Shown here: positions 92 through 17,826 of the stretch, piece by piece
Numbering within the stretch: the first letter of the stretch is position 1
Layout of the letters: the number at the start of each line of letters is the position of its first letter
Source of the DNA: a virus
Direction: 5' to 3' (one strand)
DNA length: 23,040 bases
IMG/VR virus record: IMGVR_UViG_3300009180_000227
Coordinates: 1-23,040 of that record
Translations under genes and position numbers: made by a program
The notes under the pieces: model-generated
The model's database searches: none
Told to the model about the DNA's origin: nothing
What the model saw: the letters and a program-made list of their open reading frames with translations, nothing else

Positions 92-2113
92 TTACTCGGG
101 GTATTGAATAATTACAATTCCAGCCCCCCCGGTTCCGCCTGACTGAACATAGCCCCCTCCACCTCCTCCGCCACCACCGCCGGTATTGGTAGTTCCTGGA
201 GTTGCAGTAGCAGTTGGATACGGGGAGCTATAAATTCCAGTCCAATTCACATCACCGCCTGTTCCACCCCCGCCTACGCCGCCAGGGCGGCCCATGACAC
301 CAGTATTAGTAATCGGCGAGCCGGGAGGTGCTGGAGATGCACCTCCGCCAGACCCCCCTCCACCAGCAAAATATCTATATCCAGCAACTGGACCAGGAGT
401 TCCATAGGAAGATGGTGATAATACTGAGTACCACCCAGCACCACCGATGCCGCCACCAACTGGAGGGTTATTTAATCCGCTTTCGGTTGAAGTGCCGGGA
501 CCGTTACCTCCGCTAGCACCAGCACCACCTCCTCCAGATCCAGTCGAAGGGTTTGTAGGGAATCCTGAAAATGATCCACCTGAATTTCCTTGAATCAATG
601 GGGATGGGGATGCTGCTCCACCTGTTCCTGCGGTATTAGAAAAAGGCTTCCCAACACCTCCTCCAGAACCGCCACTACCTCCAGGAGTGGCAGCAGAACT
701 AGTGCCAGCACCGCCACCATACGCAATAATTTGGAGTGGTCCTGGCAAACCTATTGTTGTATTAGATCCTGAACTATCACTAGGGCCACCCGTACCAACA
801 CTTACAGGGTAAGCTGTGACACTTACTGGCATCTGCTTTCCAACTCTTACGGAAGAGCCTGGGTTCCAAAGATATGCTTCAGGAACAGAAAGTGGAGTTG
901 TTATGGAAGTATCAATAGAGGTAACAAATCCACCGGCACCGCCCCCTCCACCAGTTGCTCTGATAGCACCTGGAGCTGAACCGCCGCCACCGCCACCGCC
1001 AACCGCAAGATATTCAACAAATTGCAATGATGGGTCAGTAATCGTAAATGTTCCAGGAGCGCTAAAAATATGTCGCCAAACTCCTGGATGCTCTGGGTGT
1101 GTACTTGGTTCTATCGTGCCACCAGTAGCCCTAGAGTAGGGTGCTGGTTTTCTATATCTAATGCAAACAATGCCTGAGCCACCAGTAGCAGAAGTAGGCG
1201 CAGGCACTACGGATTGACCGCCATACCCACTATTTGCAATAGCAATTCTTGCAGGAGTAGCGGGAGTAAAAGATCTACCCCCCGCCGAATATCCACCGGC
1301 CGCAACCAATGAGTACCAATATGTATAATTTGCTGCTGGTATAGCTCGACCAACAATATCCGCAGGAAATTCTGGAATAATTTTTCCCGGTCCAAAATTA
1401 TTTCCAGTTCCTCCAGGCCCTCCAGCACCCCCGCCAGCACCACCTAATGCCGAAGGACCGCCCGGTCCCCCAGGCGACCCGTTATATCCCTGTCTTGGAA
1501 TAGTTGTAGGAGTAGCTATTCCGCCGGGACCGCCATTGTTGGCAGGGTATATAGAGCCGCCGCCGCCGCCGCCAGACCCCCCGCTTCCTCCGGTAGTCAG
1601 GGGAGATGACCCAGGAGGGCCCGGATTAGCCCCGCCACCCCCGCCACCCCCTGTAGCCGTAACTCCAAAAGCACTTGATGGACTTCCATTCCTAGGTGTT
1701 CCTGGAGTTCCAGGAACGTTAGGACCTCCAGCTCCTACCGAAATTGTATAAACTCCAGGAGTATTATTTACAGATACACTTCCGTACAATAATCCACCAC
1801 CTCCGCCTCCGCCTGCATAGGTTGGGGCCTCAATAGTACCCCCACCGCCAGCAACAATTAAATAATTTACAGAATCTATTGCTGCAGAAGGACGAGTTAC
1901 GGTAAAGTTACCACCAGCAGTAAAAATATGATAAATATAGCCATCACCACCATCAAAAACTGTACCGCCTGTGGCGTAGGCACCATTGCCAGGGGCGTTA
2001 TCAAACGTGTAAAACTCCCTAGCTTTGCCGCTGGCGCTAAAACGAGTAACAGGAGAACCTGCCTTCCAGTCTTTACCTCGACCGCCAAGTGAATTAACGC
2101 TTCTTCCAGCCAC
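92..2113 (-). CDS. Glycine-rich tail fibre/adhesin with two tandem Gly-rich domains
   Basis: A 673-residue protein starting at GTG (2113-2111), 3 bases after the stop of the preceding gene. It holds two copies of one domain. Copy 1 is at about residues 48-322: GYIYHIFTAGGNFTVT, then YLIVAGGGG, long glycine runs, and closing SGIVCIRYRK. Copy 2 is at about 330-673: VWRHIFSAPGTFTIT, YLAVGGGGGGG, glycine runs, and closing AGIVIIQYPE at the extreme C-terminus. This beta-strand, poly-Gly, beta-strand layout is known for Gly-rich phage fibre domains, which can form polyglycine II sandwiches at receptor-binding tips. A receptor-binding or distal fibre role is inferred from this and from its position at the end of the tail cluster. 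Proline-rich reading frames on the plus strand here are mirror images of the glycine codons. Confidence 0.85.
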   Translation of the reverse strand: MAGRSVNSLGGRGKDWKAGSPVTRFSASGKAREFYTFDNAPGNGAYATGGTVFDGGDGYIYHIFTAGGNFTVTRPSAAIDSVNYLIVAGGGGTIEAPTYAGGGGGGGLLYGSVSVNNTPGVYTISVGAGGPNVPGTPGTPRNGSPSSAFGVTATGGGGGGGANPGPPGSSPLTTGGSGGSGGGGGGSIYPANNGGPGGIATPTTIPRQGYNGSPGGPGGPSALGGAGGGAGGPGGTGNNFGPGKIIPEFPADIVGRAIPAANYTYWYSLVAAGGYSAGGRSFTPATPARIAIANSGYGGQSVVPAPTSATGGSGIVCIRYRKPAPYSRATGGTIEPSTHPEHPGVWRHIFSAPGTFTITDPSLQFVEYLAVGGGGGGGSAPGAIRATGGGGGAGGFVTSIDTSITTPLSVPEAYLWNPGSSVRVGKQMPVSVTAYPVSVGTGGPSDSSGSNTTIGLPGPLQIIAYGGGAGTSSAATPGGSGGSGGGVGKPFSNTAGTGGAASPSPLIQGNSGGSFSGFPTNPSTGSGGGGAGASGGNGPGTSTESGLNNPPVGGGIGGAGWYSVLSPSSYGTPGPVAGYRYFAGGGGSGGGASPAPPGSPITNTGVMGRPGGVGGGGTGGDVNWTGIYSSPYPTATATPGTTNTGGGGGGGGGGYVQSGGTGGAGIVIIQYPE

Positions 2114-3876: not shown

Positions 3877-4158
3877 TCAAAAATTCCCGCCGTCAGTTAG
3901 GGTCACAACAGTGTTGACATCGTTACCCACCCACTGAGAAGTCTCCTCGTCATACACAAGCACGCTTCCGCCCACTCGTTCTGAAGTGTTCACGTCCTCC
4001 AACTGGGCGAGGTAGGTAATGTATGGAGGGCCTATGGGACCTTCGGTAACAACCTCGACTACAGCCGGTGCAGATGGCGTGGTGATTTCAATGACTTGTG
4101 CTGCTACTTCAGTGAGTAGTACCTGGCCGGTGCTGAGTACCTCTGCAGTGTTGGCCAT
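3877..4158 (-). CDS. Small fibre-region protein ending in DGGNF
   Basis: A 93-residue protein. It starts MANTAEVLSTGQVLLTEV, ends VVTLTDGGNF, and is acidic and beta-rich with a collagen-like GPIGPP step near residues 55-60. The MANT start and the DGGxF ending are both shared with the fibre at 2770-3834, which suggests a common assembly or trimerisation scheme for these small proteins. It starts at an ATG 3 bases after the stop of the 114-residue gene. It is probably a virion component of the tail tip. Exact role unrecognised. Confidence 0.7.
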   Translation of the reverse strand: MANTAEVLSTGQVLLTEVAAQVIEITTPSAPAVVEVVTEGPIGPPYITYLAQLEDVNTSERVGGSVLVYDEETSQWVGNDVNTVVTLTDGGNF

Positions 4159-4509: not shown

Positions 4510-4519
4510 CTAGGTTTCC
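4510..4519 (-). promoter_or_regulatory. Boundary motif GGAAACCTAG (before gene 4162-4506)
   Basis: An exact minus-strand copy. Its TAG is the stop codon of the gene at 4510-4920, and the next ATG follows after three bases. If it were a promoter element, the transcript would be nearly leaderless. Confidence 0.6.
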
Positions 4520-4920
4520 CCGGAACCTGAGTTGCCATCAGGCGCGGTGCGGATCGTCACGCGCATTTGAGCAGAGGGTCCGAGGCCCTCGGGCACGGTC
4601 ACCGTGCTCACGGTGCTGTCGGGGTAATACCAAGTAATGATTCCTGCTGCGCTGGTCAAATTGGTACTGCGTGACCAGTCGATGAGAAATACGTTCCATT
4701 CGCGGAACGCTTGGCGGTTGGTGTAGCTGGCAACTGGGGTCAGGGCGGGGTCGCGCAGAATGATTAGCTCCAGCCCGCTTACGACGGTGCCGGCAGGTAA
4801 GGATTCGCCGCTGGAGCGCACGCTCACAGCTGGGGTGGTCATCCCGTTGCCGAGCGTGTAAACGCCTAGATACTCGACGAGCACTGTCTCCAGCTCGTTT
4901 CGTAGGGTGAGAACGTCCAT
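4510..4920 (-). CDS. Hypothetical tail-region protein
   Basis: A 136-residue protein. The N-terminus MDVLTLRNELETVLVEYLGV is helical, followed by TTPAVSVRSSGESLPAG, a beta-strand GLELIILRDP, and FREWNVFLIDWS. The layout of an N-terminal helix plus an alternating beta sheet, with a tryptophan 'W.VFLIDWS' strand, recalls small tail-terminator or tail-completion folds, but I cannot name a family. It ends in GSGET, with the ET codons and stop forming part of a boundary motif. It starts 3 bases after another motif copy. It is most likely a virion or assembly protein of the tail. Confidence 0.65.
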   Translation of the reverse strand: MDVLTLRNELETVLVEYLGVYTLGNGMTTPAVSVRSSGESLPAGTVVSGLELIILRDPALTPVASYTNRQAFREWNVFLIDWSRSTNLTSAAGIITWYYPDSTVSTVTVPEGLGPSAQMRVTIRTAPDGNSGSGET

Positions 4921-4923
4921 GGG

Positions 4924-4933
4924 CTAGGTTTCC
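4924..4933 (-). promoter_or_regulatory. Boundary motif GGAAACCTAG (before gene 4510-4920)
   Basis: An exact minus-strand copy. Its TAG is the stop of the frameshift-extension frame, and the next ATG begins 3 bases later. This is the same compact stop/motif/start arrangement as at 4510-4519. Confidence 0.6.
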
Positions 4934-5574
4934 GCCCGTTGCAGCAATAGACCAGCTTCGATCCAACCCATTGCATTACGTTTGGGGAGCACAAGGTCGT
5001 AGGTAAGCAGTGGTTTGTCGAGGTCGCGGACACGCACCGGACCGCAAATTTGGCCGCGCACCAGCACCAATCCTCCGCGCAGGTTTTTGCCCTCCCACTG
5101 GGGATGGACAATAAAAATATTGTGGTCGTCGCTGTGAAAAGCGCGGCACGCGGGCAGCGTTGTGGTTTCCTTGGCTGATGCCAAAATTTGCGGCCACACC
5201 GAAAGCAGTAGAGGTGGGGTTTTGTCCTCGTGGCGTAGTGCCAACGCAATCGCCGCCACCTCCGCTGAAAACACAGCAGCTTCATCCTCTTCTTTTTTGT
5301 GGAACAACGCGAAGTCCAGTAGGCCGAGGGGCTTGGTTTTGCTGGTGTCCACAGCAAGATTGCGCGTCATCGCTGTGAGCTGGGCGATGGGAAGCTCATT
5401 CAGCGCTGCGGTTTCGCGGCGGATGCGTTGCAGGTGGCGCCAGGCGCTTAAGACCGTATCGCGCAGTTCTCGGCGGAAGGTGTCTCGGTGGAATTGGCCG
5501 GGGTATCCGTGGAAGAGGTCGTAGGCGATTTGCGCCCAGTCCGTTTCATTCCTTTTCCAGAGGCCGGCGACGGC
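4924..5574 (-). CDS. -1 frame extension of the chaperone-like gene (joined by frameshift)
   Basis: This is an open frame of 216 codons with no usable start until an ATG at 5370 that lacks a ribosome binding site. The 68 codons before that ATG read as good protein (LWKRNETDWAQIAYDLFHG, then FRRELRDTVLSAWRHLQRIR). They are therefore probably translated by slipping from the frame of 5448-6098. This frame is closed upstream by a TGA at 5610-5608, just before the A AAA AAG heptamer at 5580-5574. The C-terminal half (VAAIALALRHEDKTPPLLL, GGLVLVRGQ, PVRVRDLDKPLLTYDLVLP) is compact and beta-rich. In known tail-assembly chaperones (lambda gpG/gpGT) the extension made by -1 slippage binds tail proteins. 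That parallel is inference. The alternative is a lesion or sequencing error in the A6 run splitting one gene. Confidence 0.7.
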   Translation of the reverse strand, partial: AVAGLWKRNETDWAQIAYDLFHGYPGQFHRDTFRRELRDTVLSAWRHLQRIRRETAALNELPIAQLTAMTRNLAVDTSKTKPLGLLDFALFHKKEEDEAAVFSAEVAAIALALRHEDKTPPLLLSVWPQILASAKETTTLPACRAFHSDDHNIFIVHPQWEGKNLRGGLVLVRGQICGPVRVRDLDKPLLTYDLVLPKRNAMGWIEAGLLLQRAET

Positions 5575-6098
5575 TTTTTTAGTTCTGCTTCGCTGGTCGG
5601 CTCGACCTCACGACCCTCGGAAGCTTGCTCGTCTTGTACTAGTTGCCAGATGTCGTTGTAGAGCGCTTTGTCGAGTTTGCGGGTGTTTGCGGTGTCCCAG
5701 TTGGGGAGGTTTAGCCGGCAACGCAAGATAGCGGTGACGTTCGCATCCATGTTGCGCTGGCCACTGGCTGCATAAATTCGCGCCACCCGTTGGATTGCGT
5801 CAGCGTGCTTGACGCGGATCGCTTCAGCAGCAGGCTCCAAATCCTTGCCGCTCAGTGATGCCTCCACCAACTCGAACGCTTCGAGCAGAGAGATACCCTC
5901 CTGAACCGCGATGCCGTCTGCAATCTGAGCGCCCTCCACAAAGGCGCTTTGCTCGGAACTCAATAGCTCAGAAACTGTGGCGCTTTCTTCAACCGTGAGA
6001 CCCCCAAGAACGGGAATCTCCAGGATGCCGCTGTTGGTGTTGCCGACCCGCCGGGGGGCATGTGCAGCAGGGGGCTGAATGAAGGGGAGAGCAGACAT
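5448..6098 (-). CDS. Tail-assembly chaperone-like protein, zero frame
   Basis: A 216-residue frame starting at the ATG at 6098. Residues about 25-45 (ILEIPVLGGLTVEESATV) and the helical stretch to about residue 165 (NVTAILRCRLNLPNWDTANT, KLDKALYNDIWQLVQDEQ) look like a folded domain. I recall similar segments in tail-assembly proteins of cyanobacterial phages and prophages, unverified. From codon 176 the frame turns into Ser/Thr/Pro-rich low-complexity sequence and stops at 5448, as expected when a gene is read past its frameshift. Slipping at codons 174-175 (AAA AAG) would give a fusion of about 391 residues ending at 4924. Its position downstream of the tail-tip genes rather than before the tape measure is unusual for a chaperone, so the function is tentative. 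Confidence 0.7.
   Translation of the reverse strand: MSALPFIQPPAAHAPRRVGNTNSGILEIPVLGGLTVEESATVSELLSSEQSAFVEGAQIADGIAVQEGISLLEAFELVEASLSGKDLEPAAEAIRVKHADAIQRVARIYAASGQRNMDANVTAILRCRLNLPNWDTANTRKLDKALYNDIWQLVQDEQASEGREVEPTSEAELKKPSPASGKGMKRTGRKSPTTSSTDTPANSTETPSAENCAIRS
5574..5580 (-). other. Slippery heptamer A AAA AAG for -1 frameshifting
   Basis: In the zero frame the codons are CTA AAA AAG, giving the X XXY YYZ heptamer A AAA AAG, the same as the E. coli dnaX slip site. It lies 28 bases after the only stop that closes the -1 frame upstream. A short GCCG-TCGC-CGGC stem could form directly after it. I see no clear Shine-Dalgarno-like stimulator at the dnaX spacing. Confidence 0.7.
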
Positions 6099-11069: not shown

Positions 11070-11812
11070 TACTTCACCTCAGCAATTTGCATTGAGACCT
11101 TGTACCGAATGACCTTTACGCCGTTCTCGATTGCGTTTTCAGCGCTGGGAGTTGGAATGCTTAGGGGGTAAAAGGAGCCGGTGGTAGGAGCAGAGGTGTT
11201 GGATGCGGTGTCGTAAATCCAGGTCTGAAGTGCAGTCCAGTTGGTTTCGTTGCAGTAACCCTCGATCTGATAAAGCGTGGTGATGCTGTGAGCGCCAGTT
11301 ATATAGTGCGTGCCGCCTGCCGTCATGGCCAACGGGGGGAGGTCTTGGAACGTGTCTGGAGGTTGGAGAAGTGTGATTGTGGCGCTTCCAATTTCAAACG
11401 TGCCGAACAGCAGCTGGGGTTGGGTGCTCTTCTCATCAGAGCGCAGCAGAACTTCGAGGCCTTGGTTTGCATCCACAAGTTCGCAGCTGGCCTGAACAAA
11501 GGCGCCGATTTGTGTGCCGCTTGGTGCGCTAATGAACCAGCAGGGGACGGAGGTAAAGGTGATGCCGTTGGCGTCCCCACTTAACGAGACTGTGGTGCCG
11601 ATGACGCCACTCGTCTTGGTGTCGGCGTCAGTAATGCGGGTGTCGCGCCATGTGTCGTATAAGGAAAGCAGCGATTGCCACTCGCTGGGGGTGCAGAGGC
11701 CCTCGACGTGCCATTTGCGGGCCGTAAGGCCGGCACGGGTGTCACTCTCGTCGTAGCCGTAGGGCTGGGCCGTGAGGGCGGACAAAGTTAGAGAGTTGAG
11801 GGTGAGTGTCAT
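11069..11812 (-). CDS. Distal-tail (Dit)-like protein with internal duplication
   Basis: A 247-residue protein directly after the tape measure gene, overlapping it by ATGA. In siphoviruses this place is normally held by the distal tail protein that caps the tube and carries the hub. Two related halves are visible: residues 34-52 (WHVEGLCTPSEWQSLLSLY) match residues 171-190 (YQIEGYCNETNWTALQTWIY), each beginning a helix after a beta strand. Such paired domains could give pseudo-sixfold symmetry from a trimer, as in some baseplate adaptors (inference). It ends with a strand (VIRYKVSMQIAEV) of the type found in tail tube-like folds. Confidence 0.65.
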   Translation of the reverse strand: MTLTLNSLTLSALTAQPYGYDESDTRAGLTARKWHVEGLCTPSEWQSLLSLYDTWRDTRITDADTKTSGVIGTTVSLSGDANGITFTSVPCWFISAPSGTQIGAFVQASCELVDANQGLEVLLRSDEKSTQPQLLFGTFEIGSATITLLQPPDTFQDLPPLAMTAGGTHYITGAHSITTLYQIEGYCNETNWTALQTWIYDTASNTSAPTTGSFYPLSIPTPSAENAIENGVKVIRYKVSMQIAEVK

Positions 11813-14800
11813 CTTGCGTAGGCGTTTGAGACGTCAACAGCGCCGGTATCCCGGTTCACCGTAACGCCAACATTCCATTGCTTATCAACTAATGCCTGCA
11901 AACCAGCAACTACTTCCAATGCGCTTTGTTGAACCGTCGGAAGGTAGTTGGTCAGTTGCTCTGTGGCTACTTGGAGGGAGTTGTTGGCTTTGATGTAGTC
12001 GTCCTGAGCGCGGTTAAGGCCGGTGCCAGCTTGCGTGTCTTGTTGAACGGTGCGAATAAAGTCGATCATCTTCTGGTTTACATCCGCAGTGTTACCGGAA
12101 ATGTTGTAGTCGAAGCGGTTAGAACCGAGAAGATTCCGAGCTTGCTGCTTTGCTGCGTTGAACTGGGGGAGGAGACTGTTAAAGGCTTGTTGCTCGCGAG
12201 CGGCTCTGTCCTGGGCGCCAAGGTACTTGTTGAGGCCGTTGTTGCCGGTGCGGAGCTGCAGGAGGTTGAGGTAGGCATCCTGCAGGGAGGTTGCGGCGTC
12301 TTGGGCTTCGCGGCGGGCACTGCGGAAGGCTTCGACCAGCTGGGTGCGGGCAGTAGCGCTCGCAGTTTCTACAGCTGCACTTGCTTCTCGCAGGTTGCGA
12401 ATCGCTCCTGGATCAGCAGGGGATGCGTTAAGCGCTGCTTGCGCATTTTGCTGGGCACGGATTGCTTCGCGGTAGGAAGCGCTAGCTTGTAAGGCGCTGA
12501 CTCCAGTGCCGCTTAGGTTCAGCGACTGGCGGGTGATTGCAGATTGTTCTTTGCCGGCAGCAATCTTGTTACGAGAGGTGAGATCAGCGGCAAGCTGGTC
12601 GCGTTTTTCCTTGGTAATGTCCTGCTCATTCTTGAGCAGTTTTTCTGCAAAGTCGCTACGAATCTTGTCGGCTGCAATCGCGTCATTGGCAGGGGCTAGG
12701 TTGAGGGCACGGGTGCGCTCGAATAGAAGCTTCTGCCTTTCGTACTCAAGGGTGTTCAGCCTGTTGCCCGAATTAGACTCCAGAATTAGCTGTCTTTCAA
12801 GCTTGCGCAGAGCTACTGTCCGACCAACTGCCCCTGCATATTCCTTGGCTTCCTTTGCTTGAGCTTTCTGCTCTTCTGTGAGCTGGCCGTTGTTTTCGAG
12901 AAGCTGACGGGAGGCTTTGACCGCTGCACCAGTGCTTTCAAATTTAAATTTACCTCCTGATCCGTACTGACCTCCCTGCTCCTTAAAAAGCTTGTCAAAC
13001 TCGGCTTGACGGCTGGGGTCGTTGCCAATGAACGCCTTGGCCTGTTGGATGTCGGCGCCAGCTCGCTTAACAGAAACGCCGCTCAACTTGTCAATAAAGT
13101 CCGCAATCGTATTGGCTGCTGTGGTCAGGGCTGGGGCTAGGCCGTCCACGATGGAGACGCCGAGCTTGCTGAGGCTGCGGCCCACTTCGTCGTAAGCGGT
13201 TTGTAGCGCCTTGAACTCTTCACCGTTGCCAAACTGTTTGGCGATGTCGCCACGGATCAGTGCCGCAGCCTCTTCCTCACGACCTGCCTTGATCAAAGCA
13301 GCAATGTTCTCCTCTAGACCCTTACTGGAGAGCAAAGCACTCTGCTTTAGTTGGTCAAATGCTGCTATGGGATCTTTCAGAGCATCGGCTAATGCAGATG
13401 TTTTTTTCACTGCGTCGTCAACAAATTGGCCAATCTGTGTGCCAATCAGCGATAAGCCAAAGCCAAACTGTCCACCAGCCAATCCACCTACCGCACCGCC
13501 AATGCCGCCGCCGAGACTTGCGCCTGCACCCTGGCCGAAAAGGGCGGGGAATGCGCCGCCAATAATGCCGGAACCAAGGGCATCTTTAAGACGATTTGAA
13601 CCACCCGAACTTTTGGAACTAGCGCGGCGTTCTTTGCGGAATGCCTCAACAGTTGCATTGGCAGTTTTTTCGCGCTCGCGTTGAAGGATCTTCTCAGCGC
13701 GGATCGCAGCTTCGATTGCAGCTGGGGAGCCGGGGAAAGCCGTACCGCCTCTAATTGGGGAGGAGTTAAGGCGGCCAATGCGCAGTCCTTCTGCGCGAGA
13801 AGCGGAAATAGCAGCAGGAGAGCCAGCGATTAAAGCGCTGCCGCCGATGGGAGAGGAGTTAAGGCGACCAAGACGGCGACCTTCACTTTCGCTCGCTTTT
13901 TCAGCAGCTTTTGCAGAGCGTTCACGGGCAGCAGCAAGCCTCTCCTCAGCGCGAATGGCAGCTGGTGAGCCGGGAAATCCTGTGCCGCCTTTGACTGGGG
14001 AGGCATTAAGGCGTCCGACACGCAAGCCCGCAGTGGCTTGGCGCTCGATCTCACGGCTTTGGTCGCGGGAAACGCGCAGCCGGTCGCGCTCTTTGCGCAG
14101 GGTGAACTCCAACGAGTCCGATATTTGGTTGAAACTGCCAAATTGACGCCTGGCTTGGGCAGTGGTGGCTTCACCTAGCTGAGTGCGGAGCTTGGTGGTT
14201 TTGACGCCGTTTGCTTCAAGGCTACGGATTTGCTGATCAAGGTTGTAGCGCCGCTTTTGCGCGTCGGTAATCGCGTTGATGGATTCGCGGGCGCCGCCAC
14301 GGCTTACACCACGAGCGCTGAACACGGGGCTGCCTACATCCCGCTGGCTACCATCAATGTTGATGCGGCCTAAACCGCGAGCGGACCGCACATTTGCGTC
14401 TGCTTGCGTTTTTGCTTCTCGTGCAATGCGTCGGGAACTGCGATCTTTTGCCTCCGAAAGTGTTACTTGACGAGCTAGCTCCTGCGAAATTCGTCTTGCT
14501 GACGTGAACTCGCGGTCAGCGTAGGCAGAAGTAAGGCGACCGAGCTGGGTGCGAAGGCGGGTGGTGGCAACGCCGCGCTCTTCTAAAGAGTCGATCCGAC
14601 GAGCAAGCCGAAAACGCTTTTCCTTTAGTACCTCAAGATCCCTTTCGGCTTTGGTTTCGCGTCGGCCACTCGAAGATGAACTGGTCCCGCCTGCCGAAGA
14701 ATTATTAGCTCGATTGGCGCGAGCAGTAGTGCGGTTTGTGGCTGATTGAAGCTTGTCAATTTCCTTCCGCGCATCCGCAAGCCCCTTTAACAGCGCAGTG

Positions 14801-14847
14801 TCGTTGACTGTAAGGATAAGTTCGGCTGTGCCGAGGGATTCCGCCAC
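11809..14847 (-). CDS. Tape measure protein
   Basis: A 1012-residue protein starting at GTG (14847-14845) with AGGAGG 11 bases upstream, the best ribosome binding site in the window. It is highly helical and rich in Ala, Arg, Lys, Glu and Gln. A glycine-rich hydrophobic stretch at about residues 424-475 (SGIIGGAFPALFG ... GGAVGGLAGGQFGFGLSLIG) is of the kind that inserts into membranes during DNA delivery. Internal repeats are present: LRVGRLNASPVKGG / PGSPAAI three times at 275-298, 325-348 and 355-378, and RRIDSLEERGV..TRLRTQLG at about 83-105 and again at 204-225. At 0.15 nm per residue, the family rule gives a tail of about 150 nm. The gene begins at a divergent junction with the head-closure gene. 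Confidence 0.92.
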   Translation of the reverse strand: MAESLGTAELILTVNDTALLKGLADARKEIDKLQSATNRTTARANRANNSSAGGTSSSSSGRRETKAERDLEVLKEKRFRLARRIDSLEERGVATTRLRTQLGRLTSAYADREFTSARRISQELARQVTLSEAKDRSSRRIAREAKTQADANVRSARGLGRINIDGSQRDVGSPVFSARGVSRGGARESINAITDAQKRRYNLDQQIRSLEANGVKTTKLRTQLGEATTAQARRQFGSFNQISDSLEFTLRKERDRLRVSRDQSREIERQATAGLRVGRLNASPVKGGTGFPGSPAAIRAEERLAAARERSAKAAEKASESEGRRLGRLNSSPIGGSALIAGSPAAISASRAEGLRIGRLNSSPIRGGTAFPGSPAAIEAAIRAEKILQREREKTANATVEAFRKERRASSKSSGGSNRLKDALGSGIIGGAFPALFGQGAGASLGGGIGGAVGGLAGGQFGFGLSLIGTQIGQFVDDAVKKTSALADALKDPIAAFDQLKQSALLSSKGLEENIAALIKAGREEEAAALIRGDIAKQFGNGEEFKALQTAYDEVGRSLSKLGVSIVDGLAPALTTAANTIADFIDKLSGVSVKRAGADIQQAKAFIGNDPSRQAEFDKLFKEQGGQYGSGGKFKFESTGAAVKASRQLLENNGQLTEEQKAQAKEAKEYAGAVGRTVALRKLERQLILESNSGNRLNTLEYERQKLLFERTRALNLAPANDAIAADKIRSDFAEKLLKNEQDITKEKRDQLAADLTSRNKIAAGKEQSAITRQSLNLSGTGVSALQASASYREAIRAQQNAQAALNASPADPGAIRNLREASAAVETASATARTQLVEAFRSARREAQDAATSLQDAYLNLLQLRTGNNGLNKYLGAQDRAAREQQAFNSLLPQFNAAKQQARNLLGSNRFDYNISGNTADVNQKMIDFIRTVQQDTQAGTGLNRAQDDYIKANNSLQVATEQLTNYLPTVQQSALEVVAGLQALVDKQWNVGVTVNRDTGAVDVSNAYAR
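13714..14025 (-). repeat. Three-copy peptide repeat inside the tape measure gene
   Basis: Three copies of about 24 residues with consensus LRxGRLNSSPxxGGTxFPGSPAAI, separated by 26 and 6 residues of helix. A degenerate fourth (ARGLGRINIDG ... VGSPVF) lies about 100 residues earlier in the protein. The repeats sit between helical regions and before the membrane-like segment. Confidence 0.75.
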
Positions 14848-14879: not shown

Positions 14880-14901
14880 GGTTCGCAGGAAAACTCGGTT
14901 A
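14866..14901. repeat. Inverted repeat at the divergent tape measure/head-closure junction
   Basis: TAACCGAG (14866-14873) is the perfect complement of CTCGGTTA (14894-14901), separated by 20 bases. The pair is formed by two boundary motifs pointing away from each other. It could be an operator or a back-to-back promoter. A cruciform or hairpin is also possible. Confidence 0.6.
14888..14900 (+). promoter_or_regulatory. Boundary motif copy, long form (before gene 14901-15290)
   Basis: The plus strand reads GGAAAACTCGGTT and runs straight into the ATG at 14901. This is a plus-strand copy serving a plus-strand gene, which supports a directional role for the motif. Confidence 0.6.
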
Positions 14902-15290
14902 TGGCTTCAGCTCTTTTACCACTGGCAAACGCAACAGCAATACTGCGGCTAGCAGGGGCTGGTGTGATGACGGATCCTGACACCGGCAATGTCACGGCAG
15001 TAGAGCAGGAGGTTGTGTTAAGCCTGTTTCTTAAAGCGGAACAGGTGGCGTACCGTCAACTGCCTGGAGTGGATGTAAATAAAACGATCTACGAGGGCTA
15101 TGTCGTCGATCCGCAGGTACTCCCTGCTGGTGTGGTGGCTAGAACCCCAGGAACGTTGGTTTTTGCGGGGCAGCCGGCGGTCGAGTGTGTGGTGCTAGAG
15201 GCTCGGTTGCCATATGGCTCCACAGGGTTGATTGGTGGGACGTTGCAAGATACGCTTGGGGATCGGGTGCGCTTAGTGGCTGACGCCTAA
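14901..15290 (+). CDS. Head-closure-like protein
   Basis: A 129-residue plus-strand protein beginning MASALLPLANATAILRLAGA. It carries a central beta-rich part (VVLSLFLKAEQVAYRQLPGV, TIYEGYVVDPQVLPAGV) and a closing TLGDRVRLVADA. A small beta-barrel that handles one dimension ('YEGYVVDP') and the position before a neck protein fit the head-completion/closure group (SPP1 gp16, HK97 gp7 type). It is followed after 5 bases by the neck protein. Head-closure genes usually lie in line with the connector, but this pair is transcribed in the opposite direction, convergent with the tube gene. Family assignment rests on length, fold pattern and its partner gene. Confidence 0.6.
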   Translation: MASALLPLANATAILRLAGAGVMTDPDTGNVTAVEQEVVLSLFLKAEQVAYRQLPGVDVNKTIYEGYVVDPQVLPAGVVARTPGTLVFAGQPAVECVVLEARLPYGSTGLIGGTLQDTLGDRVRLVADA

Positions 15291-15295
15291 GCCTG

Positions 15296-15769
15296 ATGGC
15301 AAAGCTTCGCGTTACCGAATGGAATGCTGATCAGCTGCTGGCAAGGTCAGCGCAAATCCTTGAGGACTTTGGGCCGCAGGTTGCGTTTCAAGCTGAGCAG
15401 GAACTAAGCAAAGAGCAATACCAGTGGCCTAGGGAACGCAGTGACGGGACTCAAATTGTCACCTACCGCAAGAACGGCACACAAGTAACTACGCCACGGG
15501 ACATTGTTGATACTGGCGAACTGCTTAACTCAGCTACCGCTCCGGCGGTGCGGAGTGGTCAGCGCGGGCCGCGTCTGCAAATTAAATGGACGGCGCCTTA
15601 CGCAAAAGCGGTGCAGGAGGGTGGATATTTGATTGGCAGTGTACGAGCTAACTATGTGGCACCGGGGCGGGATTGGATTGCAAAGACTTACAAGCAGCTG
15701 AAGGTAGGAGGCGAAAGGCCGTTTATGCCGTATGTGCTGCAGCGCTGGAAATCGCTTGCCAAAAAGTAA
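15296..15769 (+). CDS. Neck / tail-completion protein, HK97 gp10-like
   Basis: A 157-residue plus-strand protein with the HK97 gp10 (neck/tail-completion) pattern: an N-terminal helix region, then PRDIVDTGELLNSA (residues about 68-80), a strand with IKWTAPYAKAVQEGG (96-110), APGRDWI (122-128), and a C-terminal helix VLQRWKSLAKK. The DTG.L..S and W..PYA..V..G blocks are what this family is recognised by. It joins the head to the tail or fixes the tail terminator. It begins 5 bases after the head-closure gene and ends against a terminator that faces the opposite strand. Confidence 0.8.
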   Translation: MAKLRVTEWNADQLLARSAQILEDFGPQVAFQAEQELSKEQYQWPRERSDGTQIVTYRKNGTQVTTPRDIVDTGELLNSATAPAVRSGQRGPRLQIKWTAPYAKAVQEGGYLIGSVRANYVAPGRDWIAKTYKQLKVGGERPFMPYVLQRWKSLAKK

Positions 15770-15830: not shown

Positions 15831-16307
15831 TTAGTCGTCTTCCATCACCCAAGTTGGGGCGCCGTAGCCGGAGAGGGTGAAGCTCACTTTGGCCACGTTG
15901 CCGGCTTGGATGTCCTCGGAGAAGTCGGTGACGTATGCAACGCCAGAGTGCTTCTCAGGAGTGCCGCCGACTGTTTGCTCAGGTGACTCCCTGTACCACT
16001 CAACCAGATCACCTGCCGCTGCGTACAAAGATGCTGATTTCAGAAGCAGGTAGCCCGCATCTTTCAATGAAAGGTTGAGGCTGCAGGGGATGGTGTACGA
16101 CTGTCCGGTTACGACGGTAGCTTTGAAGCCTTGGGGGCTGCCGTAGTCGAGAACGTCGGTGGTGTCGGAAGAACTTTGGATGCCTGCGTTCTCAAGCGAG
16201 AGCACCTCGGTCATCCCCGTCGAGGATGTGGGGTTGGTACTGGCCGTGGTGCCAGCTTTGACCCAGAAGCGGTAGCCGAGGGCCGTGAAAAAGGCACCAG
16301 TAGCCAT
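15831..16307 (-). CDS. Major tail tube protein
   Basis: A 158-residue protein starting at ATG 16307. Composition and size fit a siphovirus tail tube protein: polar beta-strands and glycine turns, with YGSPQGFKATVVTGQSYTIP, SLNLSLKDAGYLLLKSA and AKVSFTLSGYGAPT. The last segment, a strand ending in SGYG, is common in tube proteins. It forms the hexameric rings around the tape measure. The boundary motif lies 24 bases before the start, and a terminator follows the stop, so it is the last gene of the connector/tube unit. Naming is by pattern and neighbourhood. Confidence 0.75.
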   Translation of the reverse strand: MATGAFFTALGYRFWVKAGTTASTNPTSSTGMTEVLSLENAGIQSSSDTTDVLDYGSPQGFKATVVTGQSYTIPCSLNLSLKDAGYLLLKSASLYAAAGDLVEWYRESPEQTVGGTPEKHSGVAYVTDFSEDIQAGNVAKVSFTLSGYGAPTWVMEDD

Positions 16308-16341: not shown

Positions 16342-16896
16342 CTAATCATTTTCAGTTGCTTCAAGTTGCTCCCAGGGGGTAGCGCGGGGGCATACGTGGA
16401 GGTCAAAGCCTCGAATGTCGTGGTCCGTTGGTTGGGTGGCGACGAGCGCCAGCTTCAACGCTTCATCGGTAATCTCCAGCTTCTCTAGTATCTCCTCGGT
16501 GCTATGACCGTTATTCATCATCTTGCGGGCTAGCTGACCGTTACGGCGCACGCTGCCGGGGGCTTTTACCATCCAGTTATTGTCACGGATCCAGTGGAGG
16601 ATGTCACCCTCGCAGAAGACCGTCAGCAGGGTGCTGAACGTGCCCTTGGCGGGGTTCCAGGCGCGGCACGTTTTGATGAAGCCTGTGTCGATGCAGCTAA
16701 AGAGATCGTCGCTGGCGACAAATGGGTATTTGCGGCACATCTTCCGGCCCATGAGGCGCACTAGGCCTCGATGGTCCCGATACATCTGCCCGATGGAATG
16801 TCGCTCCTCGTTGCTTAAAGGCGTGGCGAGGTGGCCGGTACGGGGACGGCGTGGTTTTGGGCACACGTCGGACACAGGGGAGTGGCAAACTCTCAC
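16342..16896 (-). CDS. Sigma-70 region 2-like transcription factor
   Basis: A 184-residue protein starting at GTG (16896-16894). Residues about 62-106 carry a sigma-70 region-2-like block: SDDLFSCIDTGFIKTCRAWN, PAKGTFSTLLTVFCEGDILHWIRDN. This corresponds to the core-binding and -10 recognition helices (compare DLIQEG..GL..A...FDP..G..FSTYA...I...I). After a linker KAPGSVRR, residues 119-145 (GQLARKMMNNGHSTEEILEK) look like a helix-turn-helix. It is shorter than a full host sigma factor, as phage late sigma factors often are. It lies between the connector and tube genes, an unusual place for a transcription factor, and probably directs RNA polymerase to phage late promoters. Whether it binds the boundary motif is a hypothesis. 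Confidence 0.75.
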   Translation of the reverse strand: MRVCHSPVSDVCPKPRRPRTGHLATPLSNEERHSIGQMYRDHRGLVRLMGRKMCRKYPFVASDDLFSCIDTGFIKTCRAWNPAKGTFSTLLTVFCEGDILHWIRDNNWMVKAPGSVRRNGQLARKMMNNGHSTEEILEKLEITDEALKLALVATQPTDHDIRGFDLHVCPRATPWEQLEATEND

Positions 16897-17535: not shown

Positions 17536-17826
17536 ATGGAGTTCGACGTTCAACCTGTAGCTGATGAGAAGCCGGTGGTAAAAACCGTGCGCAAAAAAGC
17601 TGTGAAGGCGGAGGAAGCGCAGGTTGGTGGGGTGCGAAAATGGGAAGATGTTGTGCCGCTGGTGCGGGAGATGAAGGAGGCTGGGGTGTCGGTGCCTGAG
17701 ATTGCTGAGAAGTTGGAGCTTAGTTATGTGCTCGTTAATCAGGTGATGCTGCAGAGCTACAAGATGACGGTGGACACCATTGGGGTGTTTGATCGTCAGG
17801 AGCAGATGCGGGTGGCTGAACAATAA
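17536..17826 (+). CDS. Small helix-turn-helix protein
   Basis: A 96-residue plus-strand protein inserted between the connector and capsid genes. Residues 1-32 are basic and acidic linker (KTVRKKAVKAEEAQ). Residues about 51-73 form a clear helix-turn-helix: VSVPEIAEKLELSYVLVNQV. The C-terminus, residues 74-96, is polar. It starts with ATG 15 bases after a plus-strand boundary motif and stops at a TAA within the A-run that serves the opposite-strand terminator. A DNA-binding regulator of phage late transcription is the best reading. It could act at the divergent junction beside it (inferred). The exact family is not recognised. Confidence 0.75.
   Translation: MEFDVQPVADEKPVVKTVRKKAVKAEEAQVGGVRKWEDVVPLVREMKEAGVSVPEIAEKLELSYVLVNQVMLQSYKMTVDTIGVFDRQEQMRVAEQ

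Follow-up and report, generated by a model that had tools for sequence, protein, structure and literature searches.

We analysed a stretch of viral DNA of 23,040 nucleotides (IMG/VR virus record IMGVR_UViG_3300009180_000227, positions 1 to 23,040; this whole stretch is called the window), and in it a minus-strand locus where two open reading frames (ORFs) overlap. An earlier note, made from the sequence alone, had proposed that the two frames are joined by a programmed -1 frameshift and had drawn an analogy with tail assembly chaperones. The locus comprises the following features:

5448..6098, minus strand: zero-frame ORF, putative short G-like tail assembly chaperone, 216 aa
4924..5607, minus strand: -1 frame, open from stop to stop, with its first start codon an ATG at 5370
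5574..5580, minus strand: slippery heptamer A_AAA_AAG (zero-frame codons CTA AAA AAG; -1 codons AAA AAA, then GCC)
5448..5573, minus strand: zero-frame tail past the heptamer, of low complexity and predicted to be disordered
4924..5573, minus strand: putative T-like extension read after a -1 slip, 216 aa plus stop (helical T domain, then C-terminal alpha/beta region)

The frame coordinates given in the earlier note were confirmed, and the overlap of the two ORFs amounts to 160 nt. A scan of 5607-5448 for heptamers of the form XXXYYYZ returned AAAAAAG at 5580-5574 as the only one, as had been claimed, and placed it in the A_AAA_AAG register; the next such heptamer lies beyond the overlap, at 5298. 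Given the codon usage of the window, 0.0023 in-frame A_AAA_AAG are expected in the overlap, and none was found elsewhere in the structural genes counted in the window. The first codon of the T-like extension begins with the heptamer's last base (5574). Past the heptamer the zero frame is rich in Ser, Thr and Lys, matching the low complexity noticed before, and a check for ATG, GTG and TTG in the -1 frame again gave the ATG at 5370, 68 codons past the heptamer, as the earliest start. The products computed in the earlier note were also reproduced, i.e., a short form of 216 residues and a fusion of 391 residues (175 from the zero frame and 216 from the -1 frame) with the junction ELKKAVAGLWK.

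Relatives gathered from IMG/VR and from cultured phages provided 94 loci with both frames, including the window and the cultured PSS2 and S-CRES3. Since some of these loci overlap as parts of the same contig, we reduced the set to 52 representatives less than 95% identical. The second frame was -1 relative to the first in all 94 loci. Comparison of the same site in related phages, which the earlier note had suggested as a check, revealed a single in-frame heptamer, at the homologous position, in 92 of the 94 loci: AAAAAAG in 44 and GGGAAAG in 48. The heptamer of S-CRES3 is G_GGA_AAG. S-CBS2 and S-CRES1, which were read separately, have A_AAA_AAG with a TAA directly after it. Stop codons adjoin the heptamer in several relatives, either in the -1 frame one codon upstream (L008) or in the zero frame directly downstream (L040, L041, L092, L095, S-CBS2 and S-CRES1), and in these a shift would be possible only there.

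The codon ahead of the heptamer tracks its type: it is CTA in 23 out of 23 A-type representatives and ends in G in 29 out of 29 G-type ones. CTA accounts for 13% of the Leu codons in the window. We built a tree of 51 fused proteins, leaving out the two residues encoded by the heptamer, and counted 10 switches of heptamer type (bootstrap 8-10), at least five of which are forced by well-supported branches. The use of two canonical heptamers only, the roughly ten switches between them, and a synonymous base that follows the type argue that the frameshift site is kept by selection in the relatives. Heptamer type showed no association visible by eye with tape-measure length (taken from open-frame lengths). 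A scan of bacterial genomes found no relatives.

The coding frame changes at the heptamer. The zero-frame protein is conserved up to residue 175 among 51 aligned relatives, and its tail past the heptamer shrinks to 0-1 codons in distant relatives. Conservation of the -1 protein starts at the heptamer, with G6, W15, P27 and F30 invariant or nearly so. We classed the substitutions by codon position in 13 pairs of relatives. Upstream of the overlap, 469 differences fell on zero-frame third positions, against 129 and 88 on the others. Within the overlap the excess was on -1 third positions (59 vs 31 and 30), and so it was beyond the overlap (275 vs 86 and 50). The third-position bias thus moves from the zero frame to the -1 frame, which shows that coding switches at the heptamer.

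The family of the -1 part was identified by protein profiles. In 43 of 50 members it matched PF06223 (Phage_tail_T, Minor tail protein T; lambda gpT), with a best value of 6e-6. It also matched the PHROG tail-protein families 337 and 5297. The zero-frame part (the G part) gave scattered weak matches in the Pfam and PHROG scans and no family was assigned; its profile, run against the sequences of the PDB, returned nothing relevant. The lambda T part starts with GKVFDG, to be compared with GKVAEG in PSS2 and GKVADG in L039, a short resemblance that we take as a lead only. The two halves of the fused protein were folded separately. The zero-frame model has a beta-hairpin and helices, is confident at residues 1-160 and has a disordered tail past about residue 165; in the -1 model, helices come first and an alpha/beta region lies at the C-terminal end. 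The fold of the G part compared with the solved chaperone YqbN (3klu) at a Z score of 4.5, which is within noise, and had no significant Foldseek match. The best match in BFVD was F4YCJ6 (181 aa), equal in length to gp015 of S-CBS2, and the fifth-ranked one, a "pre-tape measure frameshift protein G", was not significant.

The composition of the virion was available for a cultured relative. ORFs 064 and 065 of P-SS2 are the two frames of the homologous gene. Mass spectrometry of P-SS2 virions (PMC2784084, Table 2) lists ORFs 061-063 and 066-069, and lists neither 064 nor 065. Tail assembly chaperones leave the virion (PMC5009743), with which this absence, known from the published table for the P-SS2 homologues, agrees. 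The earlier analogy with tail assembly chaperones is thereby backed by the PF06223 matches, by the P-SS2 proteomics and by the gene order of cultured cyanophages, where the pair stands after the neck genes and ahead of the major tail protein gene. In S-CRES3 this order is neck gene, chaperone pair, homologue of a 136-aa gene, major tail protein and tape measure, and in PSS2 the pair directly follows the neck genes. Three genes of the window are relevant here:

4510..4920, minus strand: 136-aa gene after the chaperone pair, present in all relatives examined
11809..14847, minus strand: probable tape-measure gene, by its length, Gly-rich hydrophobic stretch and position; conserved in the clade and upstream of the pair
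15831..16307, minus strand: major tail (tube) protein (PHROG 38654 and 1407)

The 136-aa gene is perhaps a tail terminator, judging by position only; its homologue stands ahead of the major tail protein in S-CRES3. In the clade of the window, the pair and the 136-aa gene lie downstream of the tip genes in all nine contigs examined. Seven of these contigs have a detected tape-measure match, and in them the pair lies 5.3-7.2 kb past the tape-measure gene; in the other two it is 4.7-5.3 kb past a 247-aa gene that follows the tape measure. The stretch of the window that separates the major tail gene from the tape-measure gene contains no other candidate chaperone pair, only reversed neck genes.

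We conclude that the locus very probably encodes a lambda-type G/GT tail assembly chaperone pair with a -1 frameshift at A_AAA_AAG. Most ribosomes would read 6098-5448 and make the short protein of 216 aa. In a minority of them, the tRNA-Lys on AAA and AAG of the heptamer would slip back by one base, and these ribosomes would continue in the -1 frame to 4924, adding a T-like extension of 216 residues to the first 175 and yielding the 391-aa fusion. By comparison with lambda, the short product would predominate, with a few per cent of fusion. The part common to both products may coat the tape-measure protein, the T part may recruit tail-tube subunits, and both the short and the fused product would leave the virion, again as in lambda.

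Several observations weigh against this assignment. The near-identical L042 and L043, the exceptions among the 94 loci, have a non-canonical GGAAAAG (at about 3936-3945) followed by the zero-frame stop; this may be a weak site, a decayed one or a sequencing error. No RNA structure past the heptamer is conserved among the 52 representatives (mean z of -0.5). The -1 protein of the window itself has no passing match to PF06223, profiles compared with lambda gpG and gpT gave no significant match, and the fold searches gave no significant PDB match for either the zero-frame or the -1 model. The usual G/GT order, in which the pair stands between the genes for the major tail protein and the tape measure, is absent from the window and its clade, where the pair does not adjoin the tape measure. 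The slippage and the fusion product are supported by comparison only. Gene order is typical of these pairs and defines neither the protein nor the mechanism, and we keep the G/GT assignment with this exception. Given the lack of a conserved downstream structure, strong stimulators may be dispensable for the heptamer.

Two candidate stimulators were considered and rejected. Some G-type relatives, e.g., L060, have a stem of 6-7 bp about 5 nt past the heptamer, and we discarded a downstream hairpin because no consistent structure was found across the representatives. Many relatives have GGAGGAG-like runs upstream, where they code for Glu-rich sequence; there is no such Shine-Dalgarno-like run just ahead of the heptamer in the window, and an upstream element of this kind was also discarded.

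Could the two frames result from an error? A run of six A is a place prone to indels in sequencing or assembly, and the true gene might then be one continuous frame. The probability of this is practically nil: the same arrangement is found in 92 loci and in the cultured PSS2, S-CBS2, S-CRES1 and S-CRES3, and the half or so of the relatives that carry GGGAAAG, whose homopolymers do not exceed three bases, already refute it. These relatives also contradict the miscounted A-run that the earlier note had named as a way to be wrong; its other refuting case, a single continuous gene, was found in none of the relatives. The GGGAAAG relatives bear equally on transcriptional slippage, in which the second product would arise from the polymerase rather than the ribosome. 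Polymerases can slip on A-runs, but six A are short for this and the G-type relatives have no suitable run, which makes it extremely improbable here. Both homopolymer error and polymerase slippage are thus excluded as general explanations.

It is very improbable that the -1 ORF constitutes a gene of its own, translated from the ATG at 5370 or by translational coupling and without frameshifting. That ATG does leave an ORF of 148 aa, and the GenBank annotation of PSS2, S-CBS2 and S-CRES1-3 implies such a gene. Yet in most relatives checked the conserved -1 sequence starts at the heptamer, some 40-70 codons before any start; the -1 coding bias also runs from the heptamer onward, and the positions of the starts vary among relatives. 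The frameshift might instead be real and its products serve as tail-tip or fibre-assembly proteins and not as chaperones of the tape measure, a function suggested by the position of the pair in the clade contigs, after the tip genes and 5.3-7.2 kb past the tape measure wherever both were found. We regard this as improbable given the PF06223 match and the lambda heptamer, the place of the pair ahead of the major tail protein in S-CRES3, the absence of ORFs 064 and 065 from the P-SS2 virion, and the lack, in the window, of another candidate pair between the tape-measure gene and that of the major tail protein.

The gpG/gpGT tail assembly chaperones of phage lambda were reportedly described in Levin 1993 and in Xu 2004, 2013 and 2014. 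They are reviewed in PMC5009743. The cyanophage pair resembles them in several respects: the lambda G gene ends with G_GGA_AAG, one of the two heptamers of the cyanophage family, the T part belongs to PF06223 in the 43 members matched, and the products were not found in the virion (P-SS2). It differs from them in the heptamer of the window (A_AAA_AAG), in an extra C-terminal alpha/beta region that brings the T part of the window to about 216 aa, against 144 in lambda, in a G part without detectable sequence similarity, and in the position of the pair, which in the lineage of the window lies far past the tape measure and in lambda directly before it. The heptamer of Escherichia coli dnaX is identical to that of the window. 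In dnaX it is accompanied by an upstream Shine-Dalgarno-like element and a downstream hairpin and gives about 50% slippage (PMC3711429), whereas neither stimulator is conserved in the cyanophage family, and a dnaX-type cassette with such stimulators was not found. In the g-t genes of the haloarchaeal phages HCTV-1, -2 and -5 the -1 heptamer at this junction similarly differs among phages (PMC5009743), but these phages have archaeal hosts.

In public annotations the -1 ORFs are given internal start codons (a TTG for PSS2) and are labelled as separate genes or hypothetical proteins, and the fusion is omitted (GQ334450 34537-35765; GU936714 9251-10413; OQ587941 36772-37913). We found no description of the frameshift in cyanobacterial siphophages in the literature searched. 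Both the mechanism and the protein class are already known: this is an ordinary mechanism that was left unannotated in a cyanophage family. What is new is modest: the pair is displaced, and two heptamers have repeatedly replaced each other. It is possible, if rather doubtful, that the cassette and the gene following it moved from before the tape measure to past the tail-tip genes, that the slip site toggles between A_AAA_AAG and G_GGA_AAG, and that the dosage ratio of the chaperones then depends only on the slip site, with no coupling to the tape-measure protein through gene order. The results correct how a large and widely sampled phage family is annotated; it is related to cultured siphophages of cyanobacteria, including PSS2, S-CBS2 and S-CRES1-3, whose -1 ORFs had false starts. 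They also provide a single gene in which slip sites have been exchanged naturally many times over, and a chaperone pair working away from the tape-measure gene, both useful for asking what sets the product ratio.

Other genes near these loci deserve mention. L003, L117 and L118 (S-CRES3, S-CBS2 and S-CRES1) have an oppositely oriented HNH endonuclease gene that stands between the chaperone pair and the 136-aa homologue and reaches into the end of the -1 ORF. The window has two neck/tail-completion genes (14901-15290 and 15296-15769, plus strand) opposite to the structural module, after the major tail protein gene, one of which weakly matches PHROG 5. This reversal is kept in nine out of nine relatives; in PSS2 and S-CRES3 the neck genes are in normal orientation, ahead of the chaperone pair. 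A sigma-factor-like gene (16342-16896, minus strand; PHROG 351, 2e-14) lies within the structural module, flanked by the head-tail adaptor and major tail protein genes, and its place is conserved across the clade. A 96-aa HTH-like gene (17536-17826, plus strand) lies beside the major capsid gene, on the opposite strand, and the closest relatives (G002, G003 and G004) have it too. The 673-aa protein at 92-2113 (minus strand) is very Gly-rich and probably a tail fibre or adhesin. The portal of the window is closest to those of cyanophages S-2L, S-H1 and KBS-S-2A, which suggests that this phage probably infects cyanobacteria.
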